Assembly: GCA_024653775.1 (NCBI GenBank)
Contig: JANLHZ010000233.1
Span: 1-43,021 of the forward strand
Origin: Planctomycetota bacterium
Lineage (GTDB): Bacteria; Planctomycetota; UBA8742; JACQVU01; JANLHZ01
Length of the DNA stretch: 43,021 nt
Direction: 5' to 3'
In this document: in pieces, positions 6,401-40,899 of the stretch
Layout of the letters: each line of letters begins with the position of its first letter
Numbering within the stretch: position 1 is the first letter of the stretch
Position numbers and translations under genes: made by a program
The notes under the pieces: generated by a model
The model's input: only the letters and a program-made list of their open reading frames with translations
Told to the model about the DNA's origin: nothing
Database searches by the model: none

Positions 6401-7344
6401 GGTCTGGCTGGACCACGGTAGCTTCCGGGACGGGGAGATCGCTATACAGTCTCCGCGGCGATTCGAAAAACAACCTTTTCGCGGTGGGAACCTACGGGAC
6501 GATCCTTCACTACGGGCCGTTCCTCGACGTGGGCACCAGCACGGACGGCGCGTTCGATTCCGCTACTTACACGTCCGGATCGATACCCGCGATTACAAAA
6601 AGCGGGACCACTATCACCATCAATACTTCGACGCAAAGCGAGTTCGATTTCACCTCGTTCACGCTCGCAGCCGGGGTCACGCTCGTCGCGACGGGTCCGA
6701 ACCCGATAAGGATTCACACCTCGGGGGACTGCACGATTGACGGCGTGATCGATCTATCGGGTGGAAACGCGAGCGGTAACAGCCGCGGCATCGGTTCCGT
6801 GGGCGGCTTTAACGGAGGCGAAGGCGGCGCGTCGCTTGGAGGTAACGGTACGAACGGCGGCGGTCCAGGCGCAGGGAATCGCGGATCCTCCGGAGGCGGA
6901 GGCGGCTTCGGAACCGCTGGAGGCGGGAACAATGGCGGTGGGACCTACAATAACGAATCTCTGACGAACACCGACATTCAGGGCGGCTCCGGAGGTGGCG
7001 GCGAAGACGGCGGAACCCTCAGCTCAGGCGGAGGCGGAGGCGCGGGCGGAGGCGCGATAAACATTCACTGCGCCGGGACTCTGACCATCGGTAGCGGTGG
7101 AAGCATAGACGTCAGCGGCGGAAACGGCTCGGGCGGCGGCGGAGGCGGCGCAGGTGGCGCGATCAAGTTACAGGCGAGCGCGATCGACATTCAAAGCACT
7201 TCGAGTTCCGCGCTCGACGCGACCGGCGGCTCCGGAGGCAACCCCGGTGGCGACGGACGCATCCGCCTGCACGACGACGACGGCGCAGTTACCGGATTCG
7301 ACACCAGATGCGCTCCCGACGCGAGCGTTTCGCGGAACTGGTGA
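439..7344 (+). CDS. Giant secreted repeat protein (Ig-like modules, beta-propeller repeats, Gly-rich tail)
   Basis: This is a 2301-residue exported protein, probably at the cell surface. The N-terminus is hydrophobic and ends FGAC at about residues 18-21, which could be a weak lipobox or an ordinary signal peptide. Residues about 45-1300 hold about ten modules of 110-130 residues, each with a [I/V]xYTLxDxE strand, an EYSxDGG turn and an FVW...RF/LRITPxD ending, a bacterial Ig/fibronectin-like pattern. Two shorter modules containing GGE-x5-GGS follow. Residues about 1480-2025 carry 13-14 copies of a 39-residue repeat (VYAVGxxGTILKxSG...W...SSGT). This is BNR/propeller-like, and fourteen copies would suit two seven-bladed propellers. 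Residues about 2030-2301 are extremely Gly-rich (GGSGGGG runs) around short beta segments. There is no sorting motif. The first propeller repeats (about 4920-5650) use more A/T-ending codons than the flanks. The C-terminal residues RNW and the stop codon are encoded inside a REP repeat. A role in adhesion or matrix is plausible; no enzyme motif is visible. Confidence 0.85.
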   Translation: MNIIVRLISFSIATFAFGACAYPLAYYAADQGIKNALDSGNSAPGGTVVLSAEATVTTTAASLTNSGATAINLRLIDGDSDVLKIVPEFCINGLAAQESRTWQLATLMDETDMMKPSSPTGIDYTLRWDTLSDLGLTFNPQVRFRVNIEGAEENYAPTGIFVVDNNAQPVATITSPSGAITGDVTIAYTLSDDESNPCSILAEFSTDGGLNYQRATPGAPNAEGVTGVNASQDGVAHTFVWNSGSVDDIGHTTQNVVFRITPDDTATDDSRVGIGASTEIFTVANNDPPVVTLEPLVETLSGDVTLTLYIMDTTESTASHTLTVEYSTNGGTTYQEASQRHGATSRLLYDAVSNEPGALAVFVWDSLQDLGQSYSADVKLRVFSNDGTDDGARVNFVREDDDALSTFIVDNNEAPAIVVELIGNDENFSPPTASGGSLGKTFSDDVIVRYRLIDSNQDPANLYFSYSLDGVNFSKCTESSSASSLGSESLLSLEGYGARGVYVWESHVDITSRSSSVALRVLPTDSVDGKDGKAITTSVFAIDNSSPPTASVGTPTSPTPGYYDVPVTIFDTESDSATLLVEFATPNDAAAGNWTACTQAEDSASAGSNVLDIGEAASTSPSGTTSTFRWFAAEATTGSGSYNIRVRPSDTRQGGYYTGPTITIDNSSLSQPNQPAFFFLDPLPDPISGNTQIAYSLGDQNSDAVSLAVEYSTSSGNWTSITFESGSDGSFGAALPTSGPAGALTSSPITSSSSGTNHTLVWASATDIPTVTGGVRLRFTTTDNDGSGTPFVTSPFQVGVNTKPSVAIDPFSAASDVVSVVYSIIDDEAQSIQIDPEYSVDGGANWSPASSAANQGDGIANLTSSSSPGTQHLFAWDSRADVGAGTFSNAKFRITPFDGIENGTAVSTNVFTLINNDAPQITNVAITGNSGDVSVTYTLADSTSDVSSIVIEYSSDGGTTWTAATRKSGAGEPTTGLTTSPSGVTHLFVWKTSVDLPGGPHTGIRGRITPSDASATGSPSVSSPFTIDNTTAPTATNVAPVSSTGGTTAPPVYTGDVTISFTIVDPESQSCTILAEYSADNGSTWHSASPGAGGDAGASYQSSPTGTAGSFVWNSTDIGTVLNTQVRFRVRPTDTKVGTAGVSATFTVDNNSLANTPPQISNLNPSGGSVKSGDITISFTLSDSEGQSCSILVEYFAPGPNGSVGIWYTIAASDISGDLSSLAPGSGLSFVWKSKTTLPSVDGSGYKLRLTPTDSAGATGATVASNAFAIDNAPPVVNITSLVGGEILAGGSTHTLTWTSQESNPNFVGVSYSTDDFATYTAIVNPTNDDGSYSFTLPSLDSSNVKIALAGTDGLGNTGSASITPAFTIDSTPPAVTLTYPVGGENMQGGSSQTIAWTTSDANVNAVYIDYTTNLSANPPTWTTIATSATDTGSYPWSPPITAAGTDTGIRIRATDQAGNVGSYAIIPAPFTISDRVRNRWMHQNPYPTGNDLLGVWGDTTGTVYAVGLNGVILKKSGSSWSSESSGTVNRLMDVGSDGAGTIYAVGDLGTILKKSGSSWISESSGTTQQFRGVRGSGTGTVYAVGNGGMILKKSGTAWSAESSGTTKDLWGVWDNGVGTVYAVGNNGTILKKSGGTWSIESSGTTQHFRDVWGDGSSVWAVGDSGTILRLSGGTWSSETSGTTQVLIGVWGDGTGTVYAVGYNGTILKNTGSSWSTESSGTSHVIEGVWGDSAGSVYAVGFSGTILKNTGGGWVSDAPSATSEHLYDFNLNLSNELRAVGDNGTTTQLIGPPWYPINSGTVEHFRGINNDSSGVMRAVGANGTIRVNSGGGWTTSETSGTTSNLEDIFEDSSGTLWIVGDGGTIKYYNGSAWTTSASGTTQHLYAIGEDSAGNLYAVGNSGTIRKKPVGGSWGTQSSGTTQNLHDVWGDSSGNVYVVGWGGTILRNSGGTWTAQTSGTTTHLYSICGDDSGTLFVCGDAGVVLKNTGSGWTTVASGTGRSLYSLRGDSKNNLFAVGTYGTILHYGPFLDVGTSTDGAFDSATYTSGSIPAITKSGTTITINTSTQSEFDFTSFTLAAGVTLVATGPNPIRIHTSGDCTIDGVIDLSGGNASGNSRGIGSVGGFNGGEGGASLGGNGTNGGGPGAGNRGSSGGGGGFGTAGGGNNGGGTYNNESLTNTDIQGGSGGGGEDGGTLSSGGGGGAGGGAINIHCAGTLTIGSGGSIDVSGGNGSGGGGGGAGGAIKLQASAIDIQSTSSSALDATGGSGGNPGGDGRIRLHDDDGAVTGFDTRCAPDASVSRNW

Positions 7345-7595
7345 CGTGCCAGTCACCTCCAAGGTGCCTGGCACGTGGGTTGTTCGCGGAACTGGTGACG
7401 TGCCAGTCACCTCCAAGGGTGCCTGGCACGTGGGTTGTGCGCGGAACTGGTGACGTGCCAGTCACCTCCAAGGTGCCTGGCACGTGGGTTGTTCGCGGAA
7501 CTGGCGACATGCCAGTCACCTCCAAGGTGCCTGGCACGTGGGTTGTGCGCGGAACTGGCGACGTGCTAGTCACCTCCAAGGTGCCTGGCATGTGC
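7332..7595. repeat. Array of five 54-bp REP-type palindromic repeats
   Basis: Five units start at 7332, 7386, 7441, 7495 and 7549. The period is 54 bp, except for unit 2, which is 55 bp because of an extra G. Each unit holds a 33-bp imperfect palindrome: ACGTGCCAGTCACCT, loop CCA, AGGTGCCTGGCACGT, with one mismatched pair per stem. A constant spacer, GCGGAACTGG...GTGGGTTGT, joins the units. Units 4 and 5 carry point changes. The array starts inside the last codons of the giant gene and ends a few bases from the 3' end of the transposase gene. Because 54 is divisible by three, the array reads as false ORFs. REP arrays beside a RAYT gene are a known association. Confidence 0.9.
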
Positions 7596-7598
7596 GAT

Positions 7599-8180
7599 TC
7601 AATCCAGGAGATATTGATCCATTTCCCCCGGTATCCGATGATGTTTGGAAAAGTAGTCATCGGCGAATTGCACGTATCTGTCTCTATCGCCAAAATAAGC
7701 ATCGACGAATTCATGATCCACCAAAGTTCCGTCACGCGACTTTGTCCATTCGTGATAGTTCGAGAATTCCCAATTTTGAAGGTCTGCCACAAGGCCATCT
7801 TTCCTTGGATTAGCGTGAATGTATCTGCACAACTGCAGTAGATAAGCCTCCCGATCTACGAGGATAGACTTGAATCGTCCTTCGAATACTCCGCCTGAAA
7901 TTTCGTACTTCGCAGCGTATGCCTTTGAATAACTGTTGAAGAGTCTTTGAATAAGCGAGCTGATCGACGATTCGGAATTCTGTCGAAGGAGTAAATGATA
8001 ATGGTTCGGCATCAGGCAATAAGCGATAACCGAAATATCCAGTTCATCGGAGTATTGTTTGAGTCGTTTCAGAAGGAACAAATAGTTATCGCGCTCCCTG
8101 AAGATAAGATTCTTGTACGCTCCACGATTGTAAACGTGATAATAGCATCCTGCTGAGAATATAGTTTTTCTCTTTGCCAT
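7599..8180 (-). CDS. REP-associated tyrosine transposase (RAYT, Y1/HUH family)
   Basis: This 193-residue protein matches the IS200-like Y1 transposase fold. It has an N-terminal YYHVYNRG motif and the metal-binding HUH motif NHYHLLLR (His60, His62). It also has the RYIHANP signature near residues 119-125, where Tyr120 is the candidate nucleophile. Such enzymes act on single-stranded DNA hairpins. The RAYT subgroup is usually a single-copy resident gene linked to REP palindromes, which it is thought to cut and disperse. Here five REP palindromes lie just beyond its 3' end, and one inverted copy (8195-8227) lies just upstream of its start. GGAG seven bases before the ATG (minus strand) supports the start. 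The frame is intact and all motifs are present, so activity is plausible. Confidence 0.9.
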   Translation of the reverse strand: MAKRKTIFSAGCYYHVYNRGAYKNLIFRERDNYLFLLKRLKQYSDELDISVIAYCLMPNHYHLLLRQNSESSISSLIQRLFNSYSKAYAAKYEISGGVFEGRFKSILVDREAYLLQLCRYIHANPRKDGLVADLQNWEFSNYHEWTKSRDGTLVDHEFVDAYFGDRDRYVQFADDYFSKHHRIPGEMDQYLLD

Positions 8181-8194
8181 AGTCTCCAGGTTTT

Positions 8195-8227
8195 ACGTGC
8201 CAGGCACCCTGAAGGTGACTGGCACGT
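8195..8227 (-). repeat. Inverted single copy of the REP palindrome
   Basis: Read on the minus strand, this 33-bp sequence is ACGTGCCAGTCACCT, loop TCA, GGGTGCCTGGCACGT, the same palindrome as in the 7332-7595 array but in the opposite orientation. It lies between the RAYT start codon and the stop codon of the 2Fe-2S gene, one base after that stop. With the array it brackets the transposase gene. It could also serve as a 3' stem-loop for the 8229-9414 transcript. Confidence 0.88.
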
Positions 8228-8228
8228 C

Positions 8229-26782: not shown

Positions 26783-28849
26783 TCACGGCCTCGCGCTGAG
26801 GGTGGCTTCGATCTCGATCTCCTCGCCGTCGCGGTCGATGGTGATGGTGACTTTGTCTCCGGCTTTGTAGTTCTGGAGAGTGACCACAAGATCGTCAACG
26901 GTCGAAATCTCGGTGTCGTCGATCTTCCTGATGACGTCTCCCGCCTGAAGTCCCGCGTCCGCCGCGGCGAAACCTTCCTGCACGCCGAGGACGCTGACGC
27001 CGTCCTGGCTGTTCGGGTCGATCTGCACGCCGAGATAAGCGCTTCCCGCTGGCGGGGGAGTGGGCGCTCCGGGACCTCCCTGTCCGCCGCCTCCGCCGAA
27101 GAGTTGGTTCAGCATGTCCTGTAGCTGTTGCATCGGGTTGCCGCCGCCTTCGCCGCCCTGGCCGCCTCCGAAGAGTTGCTCGAATGGATTCGAGCTGTCT
27201 CCGCCGGAATACGGGGGATGTGCGACGTTCACGCCTTCGCGGAGTTTTCCGAGGATAGCCTGGATTTCACTTCCCGGCACCGCGTAGGACGTCCCGCGAT
27301 AGAAGCTGCCGACGTTGATTCCGACGAGTCTTCCCTCGTGGTCGAAAACCGGGGAGCCGAACATGTCGGCCTTCATTTTCGTGTCGTGCTGGAAAACGTG
27401 TTTGTACGGACGGATCGGGCTTGAGTTCGGTTTCGCACCGCCGAGCATTCCGAGCAGACCCATGGTCGGGATCATCCGTCCATCTTCGATTTCGCGGCCT
27501 AGCGCGCTCACAACTCCGACATCGAGGGGGGACTCGCCAAGACCTCCGCCGGAGATGAGCCACTCGCCGAGTTCGAGTTCGTCCGAATCACCCCACGCGG
27601 CGGGAGTGAGGTCTTTGTCGGTCAGCGCTTCGACGAGCGCGATTTCAGTCTCTCCCTGTCTTCCGACGATTGCGACTTCGCAGGTGCTTCCGTCCGGGAG
27701 GACGCAGGTGACAGCAAGGTTCTGCTCGTGCTCTCCGAGAACGCGATCGCAGGTCAGGATTTCTCCTTCCGCGCTGATGATTACGCCGTAGCCGAGAAGC
27801 TTGCCGGAGGCGTCGGTGAATTTAACCGTCGATTCGTTCGCGAGCGCGCCCAGCGTGGTGAAGGTCTTCTTCAGGATGTGCGGACGTGCGCGGCTGTCCC
27901 TCTCGGCGAGGTAGGCGCGGTCTTCTTCGGTCTGCTCGCCGCCCTGCTGCATTCCGCCGAACATGCGGAGAAGGGGATTGTCGCCCATCATGTTCTGCAT
28001 ATCTTCGGGTGACATTTCGCGCTGGAGCTGCATCATGAGTTCCTGCGGATTCTCGGGAGCGACTCCGGCGATTTCCTCGCCCGCCTTGAGCTGCGCGAGT
28101 TCCGCGTCGATCTGATTGATCGGCGTCGCGTAGGCGTTGTCGTTCGCAAGAAGGATCGCGCCGTTGATTCCGATAAGTTCGCCCGCGAGGTTGACAAGCG
28201 GCCCGCCCGAATTTCCGCTGAAAATCGGCGCGTCGTGCTGGATCGCGTTGTTGTAGAACTTCATTTCTCCCATACCGGGCATTCCGCCGCCGATGGGGAT
28301 TTGCTTGTGGAGATCGGTCACGCGACCGACGGCGACCGCGGGCATCTGATCCTTGTACGGTCCGCCCGGCTGTCCGAGCCCGATGACCCACTGGCGCAGG
28401 TTCACTTCGTCGCTGTCTCCGAAGGTGTAGTGTGGAAGCTGACGACCCGCGTCGATCTTGATGAGGCAATAGTCGTTCTGGCTGTTGATGCCGATCTTCT
28501 CCGCGGGGTAGGTGTCGAATTCCCAGCCGGTGGTGGTCTTGCGGGGAACGATGACGTCCCAGCCTGTACCCGGCTCGATGACGTGGGCGCATGTCATAAT
28601 GTAGCCATCCGCGCTGATGATCGCGCCGGAGCCCCAGCCTTCGCCCGTGCGGCCGCCCTGGCTTACGTGGATGCGGATCGCGACGGTCTTCGGTATGGAA
28701 TCGAGCACGACCTTGTTGACCGTCTCGCTAAGACCCACGAGCATCTGCTCGCCGCGGGATAGTTCCGTGGGAGTCGCGAATACGGTCTGAGCCGAAACCG
28801 CGATTACCATCAGGAACATACACATTGCTGCTTTCAAACTTCGAATCAT
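26783..28849 (-). CDS. Exported HtrA-like serine protease with a second, degenerate protease domain and PDZ
   Basis: This 688-residue protein has a signal peptide (residues 1-25, cleavage near VFA-TP). Residues about 45-255 are a trypsin-like S1C domain with the full triad: His89 (MTCAHVIE), Asp126 (NDYCLIKID) and Ser214 (SGNSGGPLV). Residues about 325-540 repeat the fold, but the aligned positions are Arg369 (LTCDRVL), Glu402 and Phe497 (DMFGSPVFD), so this copy is catalytically dead. A Gly/Pro-rich linker (about 550-595) leads to one C-terminal PDZ domain (about 597-688). It should act in the periplasm in protein quality control or signalling. The dead domain may regulate the first domain or bind substrate. 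It is transcribed alone and is convergent with the cassette. Confidence 0.92.
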   Translation of the reverse strand: MIRSLKAAMCMFLMVIAVSAQTVFATPTELSRGEQMLVGLSETVNKVVLDSIPKTVAIRIHVSQGGRTGEGWGSGAIISADGYIMTCAHVIEPGTGWDVIVPRKTTTGWEFDTYPAEKIGINSQNDYCLIKIDAGRQLPHYTFGDSDEVNLRQWVIGLGQPGGPYKDQMPAVAVGRVTDLHKQIPIGGGMPGMGEMKFYNNAIQHDAPIFSGNSGGPLVNLAGELIGINGAILLANDNAYATPINQIDAELAQLKAGEEIAGVAPENPQELMMQLQREMSPEDMQNMMGDNPLLRMFGGMQQGGEQTEEDRAYLAERDSRARPHILKKTFTTLGALANESTVKFTDASGKLLGYGVIISAEGEILTCDRVLGEHEQNLAVTCVLPDGSTCEVAIVGRQGETEIALVEALTDKDLTPAAWGDSDELELGEWLISGGGLGESPLDVGVVSALGREIEDGRMIPTMGLLGMLGGAKPNSSPIRPYKHVFQHDTKMKADMFGSPVFDHEGRLVGINVGSFYRGTSYAVPGSEIQAILGKLREGVNVAHPPYSGGDSSNPFEQLFGGGQGGEGGGNPMQQLQDMLNQLFGGGGGQGGPGAPTPPPAGSAYLGVQIDPNSQDGVSVLGVQEGFAAADAGLQAGDVIRKIDDTEISTVDDLVVTLQNYKAGDKVTITIDRDGEEIEIEATLSARP

Positions 28850-28869: not shown

Positions 28870-28901
28870 AGTAGTCAGTAGTCAGTAGTCAGTAGTCAGT
28901 A
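28870..28901. repeat. AGTAGTC heptamer tandem repeat
   Basis: Four full copies and a partial copy of AGTAGTC lie 20 bp upstream of the HtrA-like gene, inside the gene-free stretch 28850-29375. That stretch otherwise holds the structured element at 28992-29171 and no gene that I can support. Confidence 0.8.
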
Positions 28902-28991
28902 TAAAGCAGAGTTCAGAATTCCCAATTAAACCTTGAATCTTCTCACTCCGGACAAAATCCATCAGACGTCAAGTTCGATGTAAAGGCTTTG

Positions 28992-29171
28992 GGAGGCGCG
29001 AAACAATAAGTAATCCATCTCGCATCACATCTTCACGGCACTTTCACATCGCGCTCAATCGTCAAATCCTCATCGGAACAATAGCTACGACTCCGGTTTG
29101 ACTCAATTGCGCGATGCGAACCTGACGCAAATCTGAGCGCGATTTTGAATGACTTATTATTTCGCGCCTCC
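28992..29171. mobile_element. Structured MITE-like element, copy A
   Basis: A 180-bp non-coding unit. Its ends are inverted repeats of 20 bp with one mismatch: GGAGGCGCGAAACAATAAGT at 28992-29011, and the complementary arm at 29152-29171. A second stem pairs ATCGCGCTCA (29048-29057) with TGAGCGCGAT (29134-29143). A third pairs GTCAAA-T-CC (29061-29069) with GGTTTGAC (29095-29102). The unpaired core CGAACCTGACGCAAATC is identical in copy B. No ORF and no clear target-site duplication are seen. The type label is a best guess; a structured RNA is the main alternative. Confidence 0.7.
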
Positions 29172-29375
29172 TTCACCAATACTAAAAGCTTCATCACCGT
29201 TCGAGCAAATGAATTACGACAACTTTACGGTCGAGAACCTTAAATTGTTTGGAAAATAAGTTAGTCCGTGTGGCGTTGACTTTTGACGCTTGCGATTTAG
29301 GATTGAAATCCGGAATCAACGTTCCGTACCTTCAGAGAGAGCGCGAATCCCGCTCTCCAGCGCCACCGGGGACTT

Positions 29376-31007
29376 ATGCGACAAATATCTGAAATGAAAT
29401 CTACCGTCATCAACTGTCATTACTGCGGAACGAAGCTCCGCCTCGTCATTCCGAAGGCCAGCCGCCAGCGGAGGTTCGAATGCCCGAACTGCAACGCGGT
29501 TTCTAAAATTGCGAATTACGGTCCGAAAAGCGCCGCTGATGGAATCGAATCTCGAATTGCGAGTTCCGATGCCGACAGGACGAGTCTGCTTCCCGAAGAC
29601 GATCTGGCGAAATCGGAACCGGGTTCGATTGTCGTTTCGCCGGAAAACGAACTCGAGGAAGCGCCGGTGGTGCTGATCGGATTTCCGAGGCGCAAGGATG
29701 CGAACGAAGAGAACGTTCTCGATGAGCCGGGAAACGGCAAAGAGGCGATCGAGGACGTCACGCACGAGGAAGCTCCGGACGCCGAGGAAGATGACGCGGA
29801 AGCTCAGAATACGGAGCCTGAAGTCGATGTGCCGCTGGATGCTGCGACCCTCGTCGTTCACCAGCCGATGCCGCACGGCGAAGAAAACGGCGTTTTCCCG
29901 CGTGGCGACTTCATCTACCAGAGTTCGCTATTCAGCTTCAAGACCGTCGAGGACATGATAGACGTGATGGCCCAGAAGAAGCCGGGGTATTCGTACACGC
30001 GCTCTGGAAATCCGAACTTCCGCGCGGTCGAGAAAACCCTAGCGAAGCTCGATAAAACCGAAGAAGCGCTCGTTTTCGCAAGCGGACTCGCCGCGATCGC
30101 GACGACGATATTCGCGACGGTAAGACCCGGCGAGCGGATGGTCATCGGGAGCCACCTCTACGGCGGGACGGTGCAGTTCTTCAACCGCGTCGGCAAGGAT
30201 CAGGGATTCGAGCTTGTGCCCGTGGACTACCGCGATCCGGATGCGCTCGCGGAGGCGCTGACGACGGAAACGAAAGCCGCGTACTTCGAAACGCCGACGA
30301 ATCCGCACAATCACATCGTGGACCTCGATATGGTGTCGCGGCTGTGCCGGGAACGCGGGATCGTTTCGATAATCGACAACACCTTTGCGACTCCGATATT
30401 CCAGCGTCCCGCGGAATACGGAATCGACATCATCGTGCATTCGGGCACGAAATACTTCGGCGGGCATTCCGACCTTATGTGCGGCGCGGTCTGCGGAAGC
30501 GAAGACCGGCTGAAATCCATCCGCTCGTACCGTCTGAACCTCGGCGGCGTGCTGAACGGTTTCGACGCGTGGCTGATGCAGCGCGGGATCAAGACGCTCG
30601 CTCTAAGGATGGAGCGGCACGGGCTGAATTCGCTTTTCATCGCGCGGGAGCTTTCGAAGCACCCGAAAGTCCGCGCCGCGTACTATCCGTTCCTCGAGTC
30701 GAACCCGGGATACTCTCTCGCGCGGAAGCAAATGTCCGGAGGCGGCGCGATAGTGAGTTTCGAATTGGACGGAGGCTTCGACGAAGCGAAGAGATTCGTC
30801 AACGCGCTGAAGCTCTTCGCCCGCGGGCCGTCGCTCGGTGGAGTGGAGAGTCTTGCGAGCATCCCCGCGTTCGGCGCCCACAGGTTCATAACCCAGGACC
30901 AGCGGGACGCAATGGGCGTCGCGGACAACCTCATCCGGCTTTCCATCGGAATCGAGTCGAAGGAAGACCTCTGGCGGGACCTCGCAAACGCTCTCAGGCT
31001 GGTTTGA
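29376..31007 (+). CDS. Zinc-ribbon / Cys-Met metabolism PLP enzyme fusion (cystathionine gamma-synthase/lyase family)
   Basis: A 543-residue protein. Residues 14-39 form a zinc-ribbon motif, CHYC...CPNC (Cys14, 17, 36, 39), similar to the MJ0042-type ribbon. Residues about 45-160 are an acidic, low-complexity linker. Residues about 160-543 are a complete Cys/Met-metabolism PLP enzyme of fold type I, with YSYTRSGNPNFRAVEKTLA, FASGLAAI, FETPTNPHN, DNTFATPIFQRP, and the PLP lysine Lys359 in SGTKYFGGHSD. This family includes cystathionine gamma-synthase, beta- and gamma-lyases and methionine gamma-lyase, and I cannot say which reaction applies. The ATG at 29376 has GGGGA upstream; ATG 29394 would keep the ribbon but lacks a ribosome site. 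The fused ribbon and linker are unusual for this family. Confidence 0.88.
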   Translation: MRQISEMKSTVINCHYCGTKLRLVIPKASRQRRFECPNCNAVSKIANYGPKSAADGIESRIASSDADRTSLLPEDDLAKSEPGSIVVSPENELEEAPVVLIGFPRRKDANEENVLDEPGNGKEAIEDVTHEEAPDAEEDDAEAQNTEPEVDVPLDAATLVVHQPMPHGEENGVFPRGDFIYQSSLFSFKTVEDMIDVMAQKKPGYSYTRSGNPNFRAVEKTLAKLDKTEEALVFASGLAAIATTIFATVRPGERMVIGSHLYGGTVQFFNRVGKDQGFELVPVDYRDPDALAEALTTETKAAYFETPTNPHNHIVDLDMVSRLCRERGIVSIIDNTFATPIFQRPAEYGIDIIVHSGTKYFGGHSDLMCGAVCGSEDRLKSIRSYRLNLGGVLNGFDAWLMQRGIKTLALRMERHGLNSLFIARELSKHPKVRAAYYPFLESNPGYSLARKQMSGGGAIVSFELDGGFDEAKRFVNALKLFARGPSLGGVESLASIPAFGAHRFITQDQRDAMGVADNLIRLSIGIESKEDLWRDLANALRLV

Positions 31008-40301: not shown

Positions 40302-40333
40302 TTCTCTCCCTTTCCGATGTCCCGGGTTTCTTT

Positions 40334-40515
40334 AGGAGTCGTGTCAAAATAAGTTGACGTTTTCACATCACATCTTCACATCATCTTCGTATTGCGCTCG
40401 GTCGCCCAATCCTCACCGGAACTACAGCTACGCCTCCGGTTGGGCTTCCTCTCGCAAAACGAACCTGACGCAAATCCGAGCGTGAAATTCGTAAACTTAT
40501 TTTGACACGACTCCT
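40334..40515. mobile_element. Structured MITE-like element, copy B
   Basis: A 182-bp homologue of 28992-29171. Its ends are perfect 22-bp inverted repeats (40334-40355 and 40494-40515), beginning AGGAGTCGTGTC. The stem extends inward with a few mismatches to TTTCAC/GTGAAA. A second stem pairs CGCTCGG (40395-40401) with CCGAGCG (40476-40482). A third pairs GCCCAA-T-CC (40404-40412) with GGTTGGGC (40438-40445). The arms differ from those of copy A in compensating positions. It lies between the GIY-YIG-like gene and a truncated response regulator. No ORF is visible. Confidence 0.72.
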
Positions 40516-40545
40516 TAGCGATTTTCGGACAACCTTGCGCGGACT

Positions 40546-40677: not shown

Positions 40678-40723
40678 CGTTTCCTCCGTTACGGGGCAGA
40701 GTGTATCAGACGCCCGCGTAAAC

Positions 40724-40776
40724 AGACTTCAAATTTTTGGCATCCTGACTCGCAATTTATTTTCATTGAACCATCC
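40724..40776 (+). repeat. 53-bp perfect direct repeat, copy 1
   Basis: It begins CAGACTTCAAATTTTTGGCA and ends TTGAACCATC. It is identical over 53 bp to 40847-40899. It lies upstream of the truncated response-regulator fragment, on its 5' side. It holds no ORF. Confidence 0.9.
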
Positions 40777-40846
40777 CCGCTGCGTTAGCAGCTAAACGTA
40801 ATCACTCCTTCGCTCCACGTATGAAGTCCGGTCCTCGCCATATATC

Positions 40847-40899
40847 CAGACTTCAAATTTTTGGCATCCTGACTCGCAATTTATTTTCATTGAACCATC
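40847..40899 (+). repeat. 53-bp perfect direct repeat, copy 2
   Basis: It is the second copy of the 53-bp repeat, ending 47 bp before the ATG at 40947. The 70-bp interval between copies contains a small hairpin, GCTGC-GTTA-GCAGC. The position suggests a duplicated promoter region or a remnant of a tandem duplication. Because the repeat is non-coding in copy 1, its translation from the ATG at 40821 is unlikely to be real. Confidence 0.9.

Follow-up and report, generated by a model that had tools for sequence, protein, structure and literature searches.

Copies A and B, the two elements of about 180 bp reported by a first-pass annotation of the window (the whole 43,021-nt stretch of DNA analysed here), represent a short mobile DNA element that, judged by its ends, constitutes a new family of MITEs. 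The interior of the element carries a one-strand fold, probably an RNA read from the minus strand, as judged from the substitutions among its copies. We suggest that A and B are non-autonomous elements of the IS5/IS1031 type that carry a conserved folded RNA payload, and we regard this reading as rather probable.

Both elements were found in the window sequence, copy A at positions 28992-29171 and copy B at 40335-40514, with the minus strand as the RNA-sense strand in each case. Their exact ends were set from the family alignment of copies. The first-pass annotation placed B correctly but gave its limits as 40334-40515, thereby taking in a target base at either end; the inverted-repeat call for B (40334-40359 with 40490-40515) exceeded the element by one base per side as well. 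The covariance model R1, built from the alignment A1 of 26 copies, scored A at 213.7 bits, with a full-length match at 28988-29174, and B at 205.5 bits. The terminal inverted repeat of A, to which no strand is assigned, consists of a left arm at 28992-29017 that is 88% complementary to the right arm at 29146-29171. That of B, likewise without strand, has its left arm at 40335-40359, 96% complementary to the right arm at 40490-40514. Copy B is bounded by the target duplication TTA on the left (40332-40334) and on the right (40515-40517), as follows from the window sequence and the flank statistics of the family, while the window sequence around A shows TTG on the left (28989-28991) and TTC on the right (29172-29174), a decayed target duplication. 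The conserved core CGAACCTGACGCAAATC, which had been described as shared, is identical on the plus strand of A (29117-29133) and B (40460-40476) and pairs on the minus strand via conserved G.U wobbles. The substitutions that distinguish stems 2 and 3 of the two copies also match the earlier description. The apical motif, common to elements in other genomes, reads CCGGAGTCGTAGCTATTGTTCCGATGAGGA on the minus strand of A (29067-29096) and CCGGAGGCGTAGCTGTAGTTCCGGTGAGGA on the minus strand of B (40410-40439).

Copy A is flanked by divergent genes for an HtrA-like protease with a PDZ domain (26783-28849, minus strand) and a PLP enzyme of Cys/Met metabolism (29376-31007, plus strand), and B also lies between divergent genes (ORFs without names). 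Repeats of other kinds were observed in the window, namely a short tandem repeat of CAGTAGT units immediately upstream of the HtrA-like gene (28870-28901), a 53-bp perfect direct repeat with a spacing of 124 bp (40723-40775 and 40847-40899) flanking the start of the ORF at 40821, and tandem repeats of about 54 bp with ACGTGCCAGTCACCTCCAAGGTGCCTGGCACGT (7331-7635 and 8195-8228), where the copy at 8195-8228 is inverted.

A search for the core with up to 2 mismatches gave 137 occurrences in the assembly (5.4 Mb, 331 contigs) and 0 for the reversed control pattern, and R1 returned at least 150 matches in the genome, the 150 that were scored all having E<1e-25. At least 178 non-redundant copies are present in this MAG, 130 of them with both ends; the copies were extracted from ~1.9 Mb of overlapping loci, of which ~1.7 Mb is unique sequence. 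Contig ends frequently coincide with copies, as expected of repeats. The copies are 180-202 bp long, and no ORF of at least 80 aa was found inside any of them. When genes were called by a simple codon-based method, 161 of 168 copies were intergenic or located at contig edges. More copies lie in divergent than in convergent gaps (38 vs 14, compared with 195 vs 174 in the background), and there is a weak orientation bias relative to the neighbouring genes (in tandem contexts, 43 with vs 29 against).

The copies are mosaic, since a 15-nt near-apex insertion of the CCATnACATCGAGGTAATGG type, itself a small hairpin, occurs in some but not all copies within several subfamilies (A1 columns 78-92, e.g., in loci L013, L016, L021, L033 and L036). 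In locus L165 (6190-6627), a family copy is broken by two other hairpin-forming inserts, one of which has long inverted repeats GTGAACGTTCGGTGAA...TTCACCGAACGTTCAC, and this points to further hairpin element families in the genome. In locus L083, two adjacent copies have one common TAA (copy c083, right flank TAAGGACGCGCGTCA), as if the end of one copy had served as the target of the other.

The flanks and ends of the copies bear on mobility. In full copies, the left and right flanks agree at exactly three adjacent positions (identity of 92, 85 and 88%) and only near chance beyond them. The flank triplets were TTA/TTA in 58 cases and TAA/TAA in 31, with 8 discordant cases (Fisher p=1e-16), so that 89 of the 97 TWA-flanked copies have a concordant target duplication. 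The elements start with GG, end with CC and carry an inverted repeat of ~25 bp per end. Among 127 full copies, the outer 14 bp pair with their own partner at 12.6 positions, compared with 8.6 for permuted partners, and the outer 9-mers are of 57 different kinds. The nearest copies are ~96-97% alike and have unrelated flanks, which suggests that movement was fairly recent. Taken as a whole, the element has the features of a MITE, i.e., terminal inverted repeats, target duplication, many copies at unrelated sites and a length too short for a transposase; the hairpin-recognised MITE, one of the options offered in the first-pass annotation, is thus borne out as regards ends and insertion sites. 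The target duplication also led us to reject an attribution to attC-like recombination sites.

The IS1031 subgroup of IS5 duplicates a 3-bp TNA (PMC12016507), and the 3-bp TWA duplication of the window family follows this rule. Three sister elements (L251, L262 and L254) have ends that equal or resemble those of a Salinibacter IS5-family IS. The end of L251 (TTAGGCTCTGTCTGAGAATC) recurs over an exact 18/18 stretch in an intergenic region of two Salinibacter ruber plasmids, where it forms the CTAG-flanked end of a ~960-bp element with inverted ends. The gene beside this end is annotated as an IS5 family transposase in one record and as a transposase in the other. Judging from the L251 end match and the TNA rule, the IS5-type link can be considered well supported for the sister elements and the target rule.

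In ~1.7 Mb of the genome scanned, no long elements with the ends of the window family were found. Three PF01609 loci have ends that differ from those of the family, the PF13586 and PF13359 searches gave no partner transposase, and a PF07592 search, run without a positive control, gave no fitting partner. Ends without the core in loci L195 and L199 resembled IS ends and proved to be degraded or solo ends beside ordinary genes.

The pairing in A and B is far beyond chance, with fold z-scores of -7.1 and -8.4 for their plus strands and -10.3 and -10.4 for their minus strands. The first-pass annotation gave no strand assignment, and this has to be corrected, as the fold, a single long hairpin, belongs to the minus strand. 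The model R3, described below, scored A at 150.7 bits on the minus strand vs 37.5 on the plus strand, and B at 147.7 bits on the minus strand. When both strands of the 127 full copies were folded as RNA, the mean energy was -88.3 kcal/mol for the minus strand vs -61.9 for the plus strand, and the minus strand was lower in 127/127 copies. It should be noted that the copies are related to one another, so the strand argument is carried by column-wise and event-wise counts and not by the latter figure. On the plus strand, C.A mismatches are commoner than G.U pairs, and selection on a plus-strand RNA was rejected for this reason. The conserved C.A "mismatches" of the plus strand are G.U pairs on the minus strand, which accounts for its better folding, and the supposed internal loops close there by G.U pairs interchanging with A-U and G-C. 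In a fixed register, ~10 column pairs alternate between Watson-Crick and G.U pairing on the minus strand, where A.C is almost absent from them. Single wobble events in the inner helices produced G.U on the minus strand 85 times and A.C 39 times (p=4e-5), whereas the corresponding counts in the terminal helix were 60 and 55. Given this strand bias inside and none in the terminal helix, the terminal repeat looks like a sequence under DNA-level constraint and the interior like one under one-strand constraint. Compensatory changes combined with wobbles tolerated on one strand are characteristic of a structured RNA, so that the second option of the first-pass annotation probably applies to the interior too.

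Based on RNAalifold analysis of the 26 copies, 23 of 46 pairs have compensatory changes. Covariation was also assessed in 153 near-complete distinct copies against a substitution-preserving, tree-based null (our own R-scape-like implementation, in which a single tree is an approximation because the copies are mosaic). Five pairs of A1 columns were found at E<0.05 (13-193, 30-176, 77-129, 76-130 and 62-144), all of which lie on the hairpin diagonal, with three belonging to internal stems; the next best pairs are nearly all diagonal too. The covariation first claimed between A and B is real, as seen in these copies and in relatives elsewhere, but two copies alone were weak rather than strong evidence for it. 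Tree parsimony counted 114 Watson-Crick to Watson-Crick double changes, compared with 2-6 when partners were slid by 1-3 columns. Internal branches showed a 2.05-fold higher ratio of compensated to broken changes than terminal ones did (p=0.0008). We infer that the structure is kept during propagation and decays after landing; the contrast between internal branches and tips supports a role in propagation without proving it. The covariance-model search suggested in the first-pass annotation gave many copies, significant covarying pairs and defined boundaries, and the results named there as refuting (no more copies, unpaired arms without covariation or a known family) did not occur.

Among 40 relatives, R1 gave one weak match, in G002, a genome from another taxonomic family of the same class. 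The elements of G002 are 176 bp long, with the ends GTACAGCTCCCCAGAAGAAAGTGACCC and the flanks TTA/TTA or TAA/TAA. The model R2, built from six copies of the G002 element, matched more G002 subfamilies with other ends, elements in three further genomes (G005, G019 and G030) and the copies of the window genome, the latter always in the inferred sense orientation (~32-50 bits sense vs 14-25 antisense, both strands being scored). With the model R3, based on the combined alignment A5, elements were detected in 32 of 294 sampled genomes of the phylum, from 29 genera, at E<=1e-4 (E-values are rough owing to short calibration), often with several copies per genome, while 710 kb of viral DNA yielded no R3 match at E<=0.01. 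The elements linked by R3 are sequence-different hairpins of ~165-185 nt. In the alignment A6, compensatory changes across genomes were found in 67 of 68 pairs, and 87.8% of cells pair compared with ~37-43% in slid controls, although these figures lean toward structure, since A5 and A6 were fitted to the model. The constant sequence is apical and consists of CCG[CG]AG, a short variable covarying hairpin and then YGAGGA. In the newly found elements, this motif was present in 19/25 in the sense and 0/25 in the antisense orientation (2% in shuffles). At the ends of most superfamily elements, TTA/TAA or CTAG precedes an inverted repeat that is specific to the genome.

No Rfam 15 covariance model matched A or B at gathering or permissive thresholds, which agrees with the earlier remark that no named family with this core was known, and no Rfam match was obtained for seven superfamily loci from five genomes and subfamilies. 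The core pattern had 0 occurrences in 84,980 genomes (the home genome possibly being absent from them) and in viral contigs, and BLAST to plasmids and phages gave 0 matches. The apical-motif pattern was found in 106 stretches of viral contigs; 80 of them were checked by R3 and contained no element, and they were regarded as chance or coding matches.

For the assembly of these results into one explanation, we suggest the following. An IS5-superfamily transposase (IS1031-like, with a TNA target) would act in trans on matched ends, and for this reason one end could change only if the other followed. The constrained molecule would be an RNA transcribed from the minus strand, either by read-through or from its own promoter. 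This RNA may serve the propagation of the element rather than a host function at each site, since, in relative terms, the ancestral branches carry more compensated changes than the tips, along which copies decay. Against this explanation, the strict tree-based null leaves only five pairs, the examined parts of the MAG yielded no IS with the ends of the window family, G.T wobble and G.A pairs like those conserved here keep their stability in single-stranded DNA, so that the folded molecule may be ssDNA, and the orientation bias to neighbouring genes is weak. A broader proposal, which we offer only tentatively, is that the superfamily represents a phylum-wide class of mobile structured RNA, where a conserved RNA takes the inverted repeats of the available IS5-type transposase. 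With borrowed inverted repeats, the ends would vary by genome (and by type within a genome) and the apical motif would stay constant.

It is also conceivable, if rather doubtful, that the element acts as a cis-acting RNA hairpin, which is transcribed by read-through from its neighbours and causes the transcript to be cut, stabilised or attenuated, as in NEMIS, ERIC and bcr, with selection retaining harmless or useful insertions. The intergenic or contig-edge location of nearly all copies fits such a role, and there are precedents: transcripts of bacterial MITEs form long stem-loops, some of which are processed by RNase III (PMC2229807), and transcription as part of a UTR or an operon is described for about half of the bcr repeat copies (PMC3446304). 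However, the weak orientation bias to genes speaks against it, as does the relatively better preservation of the structure on ancestral branches compared with tips; moreover, A and B each have divergent genes as neighbours, an arrangement in which read-through would be least likely.

An ordinary hairpin MITE is an unlikely alternative. Its fold would act at the level of single-stranded DNA, with the minus strand extruded in replication or transposition and recognised by the transposition machinery. The target duplication, the inverted repeats and the terminal helix without strand bias are all consistent with it, and it gains some plausibility from the fact that G.T is the best tolerated DNA mismatch; tandem G.A pairs also form in DNA hairpins. 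On the other hand, we know of no need for an internal hairpin in IS5-type DDE transposases, and a one-strand preference together with an apical motif that is asymmetric between 5' and 3' across the phylum is more usual for RNA.

Correction from arm to arm, where template switching or conversion copies one arm to the other and no selection acts on the fold, is known for imperfect palindromes in bacteria, and both arms of our inverted repeats often change together in multi-base runs. Nevertheless, this process is strand-blind and predicts perfect Watson-Crick arms; it does not account for G.U pairs stable on a single strand, for internal loops with conserved purines or for a common apical motif in sequence-different families. 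For the interior it is disfavoured by the one-strand wobble pairs, and as the whole explanation we consider it very improbable. The only point in favour of chance, an assembly artefact or a decayed palindrome of the terminator type is that copies often lie at contig ends. This reading, which deserves practically no credence, is refuted by the concordant target duplications; matched 3-bp duplications occur at hundreds of flanks that are unrelated to one another, and the control gave 0 matches.

Several known repeats resemble the window family in part. ERIC, YPAL, Correia/NEMIS, RUP and bcr1 are also ~100-200 bp long, high-copy and intergenic, with inverted repeats, target duplication and a stem-loop over the whole length (PMC2229807, PMC3733652). 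Based on their descriptions alone, they are set apart by being limited to species or relatives, whereas our elements, from 29 genera of a phylum, have unrelated ends and yet the conserved apical motif and the strand-specific fold in common. The IS1031 subgroup of the IS5 family shares the 3-bp TNA duplication, but our elements lack coding capacity. In bcr10 and bcr18 of the Bacillus cereus group, which are intergenic, have a conserved secondary structure like ours and are transcribed in 5' UTRs (PMC3446304), no sequence relation to our elements is known, and IS5-type flanking duplications are absent from their descriptions. REP/REPIN sequences with the RAYT transposase are likewise palindromic, high-copy and intergenic; they consist of 20-40 bp units with GTAG/CGTC tags and use a Y1 transposase (PMC3733652), so an element of ~180 bp with 3-bp duplications was not assigned to them.

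In a limited literature search, we found no description of a phylum-wide apical motif with one-strand wobbles in elements with unrelated ends. The usual view of bacterial MITEs is that they are IS remnants limited to a species. Here, a strand-specific fold links elements with unrelated ends in 29 genera, and no catalogued RNA family covers this fold. If the fold is that of an RNA, it would represent a new RNA class with >100 copies in some genomes, and it would become possible to test directly whether a non-autonomous transposon requires an RNA of its own.
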